From assembly GCF_009905605.1 (NCBI RefSeq), contig NZ_JAAAKZ010000010.1, positions 62,001 to 126,000 on the forward strand: 64,000 nucleotides of DNA. The letters run 5' to 3'. The notes beneath the pieces were generated by a model. That model did not search any database. It was not told where the DNA came from and was given only the letters and a program-made list of their open reading frames with translations. Made by a program: the position numbers and the translations under genes. The DNA comes from Runella sp. CRIBMP. GTDB lineage: Bacteria; Bacteroidota; Bacteroidia; Cytophagales; Spirosomataceae. This document shows positions 3,093 to 29,184 of this stretch, piece after piece. How positions within the stretch are numbered: position 1 is the first letter of the stretch; each line of letters opens with the position of its first letter.

Positions 3093-4334
3093 CTAAAACT
3101 TATAGATGAAAGCCAATCCAAGGGTTGATTGTGAACTCTTGGTAAAATCACCGTTTTCATCCTCAAATTGCTGATTTTTTGCTTCGCTAGTGCCGCTCAC
3201 CTTCTTGTAAGCATCCAAACGGAACTCAGGTTTTATGAGCAAGTGACCATCGGCCAAAGTGAAGTTACCAGTCAAAGTCAATGAATTTACAGAAGTACCT
3301 TCTCCTTTTTTGTTAAGCAGGGCACGAACACCGCTACTATTGTCAAAATACTCATAACGCGCTCCGATACTGAATATATCGCTGGCCGCAACGTTGAAGT
3401 AACCCGCAGCACCGCCCCATGTTTGCGCTGTAGTTGGGCCACCTGCACCTTGATAATCACCTTTTTGTGAACCGTAAGCAGCGTTCAATCCAACCAAGAG
3501 CTTGTCAGTAGCCTGATAAGAAGTGGTCAAATCTAACACTCTGTAGTGCGCATCAGGAGTGTTTCCGTTGTCATCAGGGCTGGCTTCATTGCTGTTGATG
3601 AAGTTAAGGTATACGTTCCAGCCTTTAGCAGGATTGATAAACAATTGAGAGATAAGACCTTTTTTGCGGTTGTTATCATTCAAATTGTCAACGTTGTTGA
3701 CAAGACCCAACATCAACGATACTTTATCAGAAAAAGCATAGTTAGCTTTTACTCCAATGTGGTAGAATGGGCCGTTATTGAAAAGATTTGACAATGAATA
3801 GTTGAAGTTAACAGGCGCATCAATTACTTCATAACCGATGTGGGTACCAAACTGACCCGCCGTAAGCGTAAACTTGCTTGAAGCTTTCCAGTTAAAGTAA
3901 GCTTGCTTAATGGCTAAAGCCGTGTTTGTGTTGCTGCCCAAAGCACCCAGTACGTTACCGTAGTTTCCCAGGTCGGCGTTTGGTCCGAATGCCAAATCTA
4001 CCACCACATCCGACTTATCATTGCTATACTGCATTTTGGTTTGCACCAAACCCAAAGAGAACTGTCCTGATTTTTGATCAAATGCCCGAGCATAATAAGC
4101 ACCCAAGTTTGAACGTGAAGCTGGCTTGTTGAAATTGCCAATGTAGTAGGAATCAATATAACCCGAAAAAGTAAAAGTGCCTTTTTTCTCTTCTTCTCCT
4201 TCTGTTTTGGTTTCTACTTTAGTTTCTGATTTACTTTCTTCTTTCTTACCATCTGTTTTTCCACCTGCATTTCCCTTAGGAAAAGCCAAAAAGGTTGCAA
4301 ACAAACATAAAACAAGTAAATTAAATTTTTTCAT
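3093..4334 (-). CDS. Outer-membrane porin, OmpL-like beta-barrel (BBP2 type)
   Basis: Predicted 413-residue outer-membrane barrel. The start is taken at ATG 4334 (MKKFNLLVLCLFATFLAFPKG, a clear signal peptide); the longer frame adds 37 low-quality residues. A Lys/Glu-rich linker is followed by FTFSGYIDSYYIGNFN, then alternating amphipathic strands, and the protein ends in an aromatic residue (LGLAFIYKF), the usual barrel-insertion signal. The pattern fits the putative beta-barrel porin-2 family. It lies directly upstream of amt on the same strand, so it may be the outer-membrane route for ammonium or another small cation; this is inference from context. Confidence 0.8.
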   Translation of the reverse strand: MKKFNLLVLCLFATFLAFPKGNAGGKTDGKKEESKSETKVETKTEGEEEKKGTFTFSGYIDSYYIGNFNKPASRSNLGAYYARAFDQKSGQFSLGLVQTKMQYSNDKSDVVVDLAFGPNADLGNYGNVLGALGSNTNTALAIKQAYFNWKASSKFTLTAGQFGTHIGYEVIDAPVNFNYSLSNLFNNGPFYHIGVKANYAFSDKVSLMLGLVNNVDNLNDNNRKKGLISQLFINPAKGWNVYLNFINSNEASPDDNGNTPDAHYRVLDLTTSYQATDKLLVGLNAAYGSQKGDYQGAGGPTTAQTWGGAAGYFNVAASDIFSIGARYEYFDNSSGVRALLNKKGEGTSVNSLTLTGNFTLADGHLLIKPEFRLDAYKKVSGTSEAKNQQFEDENGDFTKSSQSTLGLAFIYKF

Positions 4335-27696: not shown

Positions 27697-27727
27697 TTTG
27701 GATGAAAAAATTATTCCGCTACTTTTG
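27697..27727 (+). promoter_or_regulatory. Promoter of the leuA leader
   Basis: TTTG (27697-27700), 19-base spacer, TACTTTTG (27720-27727). Start of transcription is expected near 27734, about 33 bases before the leader-peptide ATG. Confidence 0.8.
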
Positions 27728-27766
27728 TAGAAGAAATACGCGTTCAGCGAAAATTCGCAACACAAA

Positions 27767-27823
27767 ATGACCATAAAATATATTATTTCACTCAACCGAC
27801 TTCCACTCACCAAAACGGTGTGA
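27767..27823 (+). CDS. Leader peptide rich in Ile and Leu (attenuation control)
   Basis: An 18-codon frame, MTIKYIISLNRLPLTKTV, with three isoleucine and three leucine codons, lying between a strong promoter and an intrinsic terminator, immediately upstream of leuA. Too short to be a normal gene call. The stop codon TGA (27821-27823) is embedded in the candidate pairing segment 2 of the leader RNA. Coding by this frame is inferred from position, amino-acid content and the RNA structures. Confidence 0.7.
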   Translation: MTIKYIISLNRLPLTKTV

Positions 27824-27877
27824 GAAGGGGATATTTTGTGAAATACAAACCCTTTCTCCTCCGAGAAAGGGTTTTTT
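27806..27877 (+). promoter_or_regulatory. Transcription attenuator upstream of leuA
   Basis: Four segments fit classical attenuation. Segment 1, CTCAC (27806-27810), overlaps the last Leu codon of the leader peptide and can pair with GTGAG in segment 2 (27820-27824). Segment 2, GAGAAGGGG (27822-27830), can instead pair with CCCTTTCTC (27850-27858, one G-U). Segment 3, the same CCCTTTCTC, pairs with segment 4 GAGAAAGGG (27863-27871), followed by six T: an intrinsic terminator. Ribosome stalling at Leu/Ile codons would free segment 2, block the terminator and turn leuA on. Seen in sequence; the regulation is inferred. Confidence 0.72.
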
Positions 27878-27950
27878 ATGAAATTAGATTAATTTTGGCG
27901 AAGTTTAACCCAAAAAGTACAACTCAATAATCAATCCCTCTTTACTAACA

Positions 27951-29105
27951 ATGAGCCAGAGAGTTCAAATTTTCGACACTACATTGCGCGACGGCGAGCA
28001 AGTGCCGGGTTGCCAATTGACCACCGATGAAAAGATTGTTGTCGCCAAGGAACTCGAAAAGCTGGGTGTTGACGTAATCGAAGCGGGTTTTCCGATTTCG
28101 AGCCCCGGCGATTTTCGCTCAGTCGTAGAAATTTCAAAGGCCGTTCGCGGACCCGTTATTTGTGCCTTATCCCGCGCAGTAAAAGGTGATATTGACGCCG
28201 CGGGGGAAGCACTCGCCTACGCAAAGTACAAACGTATCCACACCGGACTCGGCTCGTCGGATATTCACATTCAACATAAATTCAACAGCACGCGCGAAAA
28301 GATCGTTGAGCAGGCAATAGGTGCTGTGAAGCTCGCCAAAAGCTACGCAGAGGATGTAGAATTTTACTGCGAAGATGCCGGTCGGGCCGACTTGGCGTTT
28401 TTGGCCCATCTGGTAGAATCGGTCATCAAAGCAGGGGCAACGGTGGTCAATATACCCGATACGACGGGTTATTGTTTGCCGCACCAATACGGCGAGCGTA
28501 TCAAGTATATTTTTGAACACGCTTCCAACGCCCATCAGGCAACGATCTCTATTCACTGCCATAACGACCTCGGCTTGGCCACCGCCAATACCTTGGCGGG
28601 TGTGATGAACGGTGCCCGTCAGGTAGAAGTTACCATGAACGGCATTGGAGAGCGCGCCGGAAATACCTCATTGGAAGAAGTAGTCATGGCGCTTAGAGTA
28701 CACAAAGAATTGGGTTACGACACAGGCATCAATGCCGAATTACTCTACCCAACAAGCCAATTGGTCTCCAAAATGATGCGTATGCCCGTACAGGCCAATA
28801 AAGCCATTGTAGGTCGTAACGCCTTTGCCCACTCGTCGGGTATTCACCAGGATGGTTTTCTGAAACATACACTCAACTACGAAATCATGAGCCCCACCGA
28901 TGTGGGTGTCGACAAGTCCATGATCGTTCTGACCGCCCGAAGCGGACGTCACGCACTTAAGCACCGTCTGGAGTTGTTGGGGTTTGTATTTGAGAAACCC
29001 GTATTGGACGAACTTTACAAGCGGTTCCTTGACGTGGCAGACATCAAAAAAGAAGTAAACGATAAAGATTTGGTTGAATTGGCCCGCGAAGCTGTCGTGG
29101 CATAG
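27951..29105 (+). CDS. leuA: 2-isopropylmalate synthase, short form without regulatory domain
   Basis: 384 residues. Condenses acetyl-CoA with 2-oxoisovalerate, the first committed step of leucine synthesis. Catalytic features: [16 protein letters not shown] (residues 8-23), the metal site [11 protein letters not shown], and [23 protein letters not shown], plus the second half with [12 protein letters not shown]. It ends near residue 384, where classical LeuA (~510-570 residues) carries a C-terminal LeuA dimer domain that binds leucine, so direct feedback inhibition is probably absent. Control by the leader attenuator would compensate. No other leu or ilv genes are adjacent. Citramalate or homocitrate synthase activity is the alternative. 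Confidence 0.88.
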
Positions 29106-29137
29106 CCTTCATTCTAAACCGAAAAATGTAAAATATT

Positions 29138-29184
29138 AAACAACAAAACCGCAAAAGAACTTTGCGGTTTTGTTGTTTAGGAGT
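29138..29184 (+). terminator. Terminator of leuA
   Basis: An 18-base perfect stem, AAACAACAAAACCGCAAA with TTTGCGGTTTTGTTGTTT, loop AGAAC. The right arm is itself T-rich. It lies 33 bases past the leuA stop and just before the convergent GMC oxidoreductase end, so it may act in both directions. Confidence 0.85.

Follow-up and report, generated by a model that had tools for sequence, protein, structure and literature searches.

A predicted ribosome-mediated leucine attenuator upstream of leuA in Runella and other Spirosomataceae, with a palindrome common to leuA and ilvD

Introduction

What controls a leuA gene that stands by itself, and does the DNA between its promoter and its start codon carry a leucine-responsive switch? 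We examined this question in a 64,000-nt stretch of Runella sp. CRIBMP (NZ_JAAAKZ010000010.1, positions 62,001-126,000), hereafter the window, to which all coordinates without a locus label refer. The family is Spirosomataceae and the order is Cytophagales; g-numbers denote genera, and L-numbers denote loci or pieces of DNA that were read.

The leuA locus

The following features were assigned around leuA.

27697-27727, plus strand: promoter by direct reading, -33 element TTTG (27697-27700), 19 nt, -7 element TACTTTTG (27720-27727)
27747-27758, no strand: palindrome GCGAAAATTCGC, putative operator common to leuA and ilvD, 19 nt 3' of the TTTG of the -7 box
27767-27823, plus strand: leader ORF MTIKYIISLNRLPLTKTV by direct reading, ATG at 27767, stop TGA at 27821-27823
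27800-27831, plus strand: possible 1:2 hairpin overlapping the stop and the Leu codons nearest to it, weak, not better than shuffles
27822-27858, plus strand: 2:3 antiterminator, GAGAAGGGG (27822-27830) with CCCTTTCTC (27850-27858), from fold and covariation
27848-27877, plus strand: 3:4 intrinsic terminator, stem 27848-27858/27863-27873, T run 27872-27877, from fold and covariation
27951-29105, plus strand: leuA, 2-isopropylmalate synthase, 384 aa, over the NF002086 cut-off, without a LeuA_dimer match
29137-29179, no strand: 20-pair inverted repeat 3' of leuA, likely terminator, from direct reading and mechanical scan

The leuA product scored 591 bits against NCBIfam NF002086 (2-isopropylmalate synthase; cut-off 532) and fell below the cut-off of TIGR00973. 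Its Pfam matches were HMGL-like and HCS_D2 and nothing else, which agrees with the sequence-only reading of a 384-residue LeuA lacking the regulatory domain. Since the adjoining genes point away from or towards leuA, it stands alone. The inverted repeat lies between leuA and a convergent gene (a GMC oxidoreductase by eye) and is probably a two-way terminator. In the Runella genome, leuC and ilvD, both over their family cut-offs, are on a different contig, where ilvN-, ilvC-, ilvA- and leuB-like proteins adjoin them (Pfam); a CimA-like protein with LeuA_dimer also belongs to this cluster (CimA model below cut-off), and ilvB and leuD would be placed there by position.

By reading, the promoter fits the Bacteroidota housekeeping form (TTTG, about 19 nt, TAnnTTTG), of which the TAnnTTTG -7 box is given in the available part of PMC9723704, and it is retained across many relatives whose upstream regions were read. 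Direct reading reproduced the leader letters and coordinates of the sequence-only reading: a frame of 18 codons with three Leu and three Ile, one G-U in pairing 2:3, and six T at 27872-27877, of which the first two or three could pair in the 3:4 stem. The Leu codons (27791, 27800 and 27806) are non-adjacent, and none is CTA.

Folding of the window leader (z -4.5 as a whole) gave -15.6 kcal/mol (z -4.8) for the 11-pair terminator, to which a 12th pair (27847-27874) could be added, and -15.0 kcal/mol (z -3.7) for the antiterminator. These two structures are thus beyond chance, and the 1:2 stem is not (-8.8 kcal/mol, z -0.6, equalled by 50 of 200 shuffles). Terminator and antiterminator are mutually exclusive and nearly equal in energy, as expected for a switch. 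A mechanical scan, whose counts were about the shuffled level, listed neither this terminator nor this promoter; it looks for hexamers of the sigma-70 type and, behind a fully extended stem, for a longer T run.

Conservation in the family

A LeuA match at E<=1e-100 was present in 213 of 222 family genomes. We read 110 leuA upstream regions, hand-chosen among the matches listed to spread genera (23 of 36), and scored a leader frame if it ended 15-45 nt 5' of a terminator. A terminator was scored in 89 regions, and leader frame plus terminator in 88, representing 17 of the 23 sampled genera. TTG and GTG starts were admitted post hoc, after the g9 sequences had been read, and nine of the leaders (eight g9, one g18) depend on TTG. 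Examples from relatives are MKPIAQNLILLLLITS, MNALELNLNLLILLIP and MTCTNYNIQSLLLLTLAM, and the TTG-started MNHSSIAISLLLLLNQSV.

The combination was missing in 22 regions (g2 5/5, g10 5/5, g11 2/2, g14 1/1, g22 6/6, g25 1/1, g36 1/2 and g8 1/30). In g11, g22 and the g36 case, leuA follows closely behind leuB by eye, with the leuB assignment supported in g11 and g22. The g8 case, L030, has the terminator without a frame; the part from promoter to start codon is apparently lost there, and the Leu codons, segment 2 and the terminator are retained.

Leader codon content

The ORF rule is permissive, since 1883 of 5280 dinucleotide shuffles also yielded an ORF, and these shuffle ORFs served as the control for composition. 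Leu made up 26.5% of leader residues (genus-weighted; 88 loci, 17 genera) compared with 10.9% in shuffle ORFs, a 2.4-fold enrichment, and 91% of the real leader ORFs but 26% of the shuffle ORFs had at least 15% Leu. At least two Leu codons were present in all 88 leaders and at least four in 55. Ile rose 1.2-fold (8.2% vs 6.8%); Gln was 1.7-fold and Asn 1.5-fold high, Met was 2.2-fold high from a base of 0.7%, and Val was depleted. Because Leu is the main enriched residue, the leuA leader is a leucine leader and not the Leu/Ile leader first described: the leucine half of that description holds, and the isoleucine half does so at best locally, as in the three g12 leaders, which all contain IIIKLL.

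The combination of a Leu-rich leader and a terminator stood before 54 of 79 leuA genes, compared with 15 of 517 control ORFs of at least 200 aa. The rule was almost that used above, with a minimum of 15% Leu in addition; most of these leuA genes come from species already among the 110, and the control ORFs include non-gene frames.

Could the leucines be a by-product of RNA pairing, with a CT-rich stretch serving as segment 1 opposite GAGAAGG and the frame left untranslated? In a number of leaders, CTTCTCCTCAC-like runs are indeed complementary to GTGAGAAGG. However, each of the 88 frames keeps its two or more Leu codons, those of other genera are interspersed and include CTA, the 1:2 pairing is not above shuffles at most loci, and Ile/Val-rich leaders stand at ilvD instead (see below); we regard this explanation as extremely unlikely. 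Among the Leu codons of the leaders, CTA has a share of 23% (weighted by genus over 17 genera). In eight genes of the window its share is 2.8% of 318 Leu codons; the two sets differ in genus.

Competing RNA pairings

In 79% of the 89 loci, pairing 2:3 beat shuffles with p<=0.05, and in 44% with p 0.01 (window p 0.015); for pairing 1:2 the share at p<=0.05 was 18% (window p 0.385). In an alignment of 65 non-redundant rows out of 88, compared with shuffles that ignore relatedness and with slid pairings, 93.4% of the 2:3 cells were paired (91.5% in shuffles and no more than 77.6% on sliding), two-sided changes occurred at six of eight pairs (slid at most four) with a covariation score of 0.228 (slid at most 0.151), and 14 two-sided cells were counted against 4.4 +- 1.7 in shuffles (0/500), a number that a +3 slide also gives. 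For 3:4 in the same comparison, 91.5% of cells were paired, where shuffles gave 86.3% and slid pairings no more than 74.9%. Two-sided cells numbered 65, with a shuffled figure of 21.1 (0/500) and no slide above 18; the number of 3:4 pair types was not unusual in this alignment (91/500 shuffles). Pairings 2:3 and 3:4 therefore covary. The claim that all four segments are present is upheld for these two pairings and weakened for 1:2, which does not rise above shuffles in the window or at most loci.

The stop lies at most 15 nt from segment 2 in 88 of 88 leaders and a Leu codon lies at least 16 nt upstream of it in 85 of 88, an arrangement that is partly built into the search rule. The size of the ribosome footprint underlies this geometry of stop and segment 2.

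Leaders at ilvD and hisG

In the Runella genome, ilvD is preceded by TTTG-N19-GCGTAATTTCGC, the leader MFANIIVVVVVILCTQTV and a terminator (L269 17250-17600, minus strand). This leader reads IIVVVVVIL, as in an Ile/Val/Leu attenuator. Twenty further sites with the promoter element were picked among the matches listed, and ilvD lies behind 16 of them; of the remainder, L292 runs into the end of its contig, and no ilvD was seen at L278, L291 or L293. Leader and terminator were found at 15 of the 16 relatives read (the exception being L280, g11) in addition to Runella itself, and Val, Ile and Leu together form 51.5% of the 17 leaders comprising these 15, L278 and the Runella leader. Leader codon content thus tracks the operon products at leuA and ilvD.

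Upstream of hisG in Runella (L270 about 3560-3620, minus strand), a short frame beginning with GTG, in which five His codons follow one another, was seen by eye; the region folds unremarkably (z 0.26), and no clear terminator was visible there.

A real premature terminator that answers to another input, such as an RNA-binding protein, a tRNA or a small molecule, without a translating ribosome, would make equal use of the terminator and antiterminator, which suit any sensor, and the conserved palindrome lies within the same leader. The fit of leader codons to the operon at both leuA and ilvD argues against it, as does the Rfam search, and we consider such an input very unlikely. In that search, nothing in the leuA leader was over cut-off, and no Leu leader, T-box or riboswitch was listed to E 10 or E 5; the weak listings to E 10 (e.g. 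a PyrR site and the L10 leader) were far below cut-off. Rfam includes Leu leader and T-box families; a T-box, a riboswitch or an Rfam leader was rejected as the identity of the element, with nothing over cut-off. The leader also did not match RF01692, which we take to be a Trp leader.

The palindrome upstream of leuA and ilvD

The form GCGA[AT]4TCGC occurs in 75 of the 110 family leuA regions, starting exactly 19 nt after TTTG in 70, at 18 nt in four, and without a TTTG in one. Palindrome and attenuator occur together in 71 regions, the palindrome only in four, the attenuator only in 17 and neither in 18. Across the family, TTTG-N19-GCGWANNTTCGC was found in at least 125 of 222 genomes and at least 21 of 36 genera, and its matches are not all promoters of branched-chain amino acid (BCAA) genes (L291, L293). 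TTTG-N19-GCGAAWTTTCGC, a pattern that does not fit Runella's own variants, occurred in 4 of 245 order genomes outside the family vs 29 of 46 inside, and its control in 1 of 291 overall.

As an RNA hairpin, the window palindrome folds weakly (-4.8 kcal/mol, z -0.95). Covariation is uninformative on RNA versus DNA because the outer pairs hardly vary; a DNA element is favoured because the distance to the promoter is fixed and the distance to the leader start is variable. The palindrome is probably an operator. This 12-nt palindrome, common to leuA and ilvD and retained in some attenuator-free genera, is the new part of this work.

The operator and its regulator might then be the main leucine control, with the attenuator for fine-tuning, which is compatible with the attenuator being real. 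Consistent with this are the fixed spacing at leuA and ilvD and the palindromes lacking a scored attenuator in 3/5 g10 loci, in 1/1 g14 and at ilvD in the 1/1 g11 read. Against it, 17 of the 110 loci, including all sampled g9, g12, g18 and g32, have an attenuator and no palindrome, and there the attenuator is on its own. We hold a leading role of the operator to be possible but rather unlikely.

In the Runella genome, GCGWAAWTTCGC occurs three times exactly (at leuA, ilvD and a desaturase-like gene), which is not a high count because the reversed control occurs four times. The third copy (L304 position 9427, minus-strand reading; also in G009/L307) lies 5' of the -7 box of the desaturase-like gene, whose product reaches the NCBIfam DesA family at E 1.9e-32 (below cut-off), shows weak matches to solved acyl-CoA desaturases and has no Pfam match at 1e-3.

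Outside the family, the palindrome at L295 is flanked by malate synthase and a divergently oriented XRE-type regulator, and at L294 one precedes a regulator that shares 48.6% identity with its L295 counterpart. Two copies precede malate synthase at L297, where no XRE homologue was found within the 14 kb read (L306). These XRE proteins have a Pfam helix-turn-helix, and one has a sub-cut-off Peptidase_M78 match. According to the consulted part of PMC10370305, RamB of Paracoccus, of the ScfR family, attaches to DNA upstream of malate synthase and is itself bound by CoA thioesters; a ScfR-like nature of the XRE proteins near the palindrome is a lead, not a result. Speculatively, and in our view improbably, the palindrome could mark a family regulon of leuA, the ilv-leu operon and (in Runella) the desaturase-like gene. 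An XRE/ScfR-like regulator that senses acyl-CoA might read it and keep iso-branched and unsaturated membrane lipids in balance, and individual operons would carry attenuators as a further layer; the choice of regulator, its ligand and the link to lipids are guesswork.

A gene for an AraC-family regulator lies inside the ilv-leu cluster 5' of leuC (L269 7557-8399, minus strand), and some loci of Dyadobacter and Spirosoma have a match to it. Its protein was not supported as the palindrome regulator: it has no match in the Fibrisoma (g11) loci, where ilvA adjoins leuC, yet the palindrome stands at the g11 ilvD; the gene could lie elsewhere.

Leader and regulatory domain

The sequence-only reading also proposed that the leader replaces the regulatory domain of LeuA. 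Outside the family but within the order, 65 LeuA matches were listed, and upstream DNA was read for 61 (all except G231, G253, G298 and G305). By eye, a Leu leader with a terminator precedes 2 of 17 long leuA open frames (L214 and L246, >490 aa) vs 2 of 44 short ones (L210, L211); terminator-like sites accompanied by other frames at L220, L248, L254 and L258 were left uncounted, being far upstream, Leu-poor or weak. The L214 LeuA (499 aa) has both LeuA_dimer and an upstream Leu leader, and the sampled leuA of g2, g10, g11, g14, g22 and g25 are short open frames with no scored leader. Substitution was therefore rejected as a rule. Leader absences outside the family mean little, because many of those leuA may sit inside operons.

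Proposed mechanism

Conservation and covariation strongly support attenuation before leuA, and the window leader is in our judgement very probably a ribosome-mediated leucine transcription attenuator. This assignment draws on what the aligned DNA displays, namely the frame, its Leu enrichment, the covarying competing pairings, their geometry and their conservation. RNA polymerase would start a few nucleotides 3' of the -7 box, and a ribosome would translate the leader frame. When charged leucyl-tRNA is ample, the ribosome would reach the stop, where segment 2 already begins, and cover that segment, so that the 3:4 terminator would form and transcription would end before leuA. When leucine is short, the ribosome would stall earlier, at one of the Leu codons that precede segment 2 by 16-31 nt, and segment 2 would be free to pair with segment 3; no terminator would form, and leuA would be transcribed. 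Translation, stalling and leucine dependence are what we infer from the leader. The operator-like palindrome just 3' of the start site, in common with the ilv operon, would probably set promoter output as a second layer.

An attenuator of this kind needs a ribosome close behind RNA polymerase, and such coupling is assumed here for Bacteroidia, whose ribosomes do not recognise Shine-Dalgarno sequences according to the part of PMC9976891 consulted. The conserved leaders at leuA and ilvD are indirect evidence of coupling in a phylum with ribosomes that ignore these sequences, and the common palindrome offers a handle for finding a BCAA regulator in Spirosomataceae.

Comparison with known systems

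A 2010 survey (PMC2965389, in part) knew of no demonstrated example from beyond Proteobacteria and Actinobacteria until it described its own in Firmicutes. In Bacteroidota, leader-peptide attenuation has been predicted upstream of amino-acid operons of Flavobacterium psychrophilum (PMC9723704, in part), and small frames reminiscent of leader peptides are described in Bacteroides thetaiotaomicron (PMC7366714, in part); the earlier wording that such leaders are 'rarely annotated' in the phylum is thus fair, and 'unknown' would not be. Because of this earlier prediction (same excerpt of PMC9723704), the Runella attenuator is of a known kind; the F. psychrophilum leaders share the phylum and the inferred mechanism but belong to a different order, and that excerpt names no leuA leader and gives no alignment. 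The Bacteroid-trp motif RF01692 is a cis-regulatory RNA candidate in Bacteroidetes (PMC2864571, in part). Leaders of actinobacterial ilvB, leuS and leuA encode peptides with Leu or Ile/Val/Leu runs (PMC1262725, in part) and resemble those of Runella in placing such codons before BCAA-related genes. In contrast, the actinobacterial leuA element is described as a pseudoknot: its run of Leu codons base-pairs with the Shine-Dalgarno box of leuA, and the same excerpt names no terminator for it (PMC1262725). In the one limited literature collection searched, we found no Cytophagales leuA or ilv leader and no Bacteroidetes branched-chain operator. Vitreschak 2004 reportedly mentions Bacteroidetes.

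The leuL leader of E. coli is an attenuator. Like the Runella leader, it provides a leader peptide with Leu codons (MTHIVRFIGLLLLNASSLRGRRVSGIQH) upstream of leuA on the same strand. The leader sequences themselves differ, and that of Runella has no Rfam match over cut-off. The gene order differs too: leuB lies behind leuA in E. coli, whereas Runella leuA stands alone, with leuC and a leuB-like gene in the ilv cluster.
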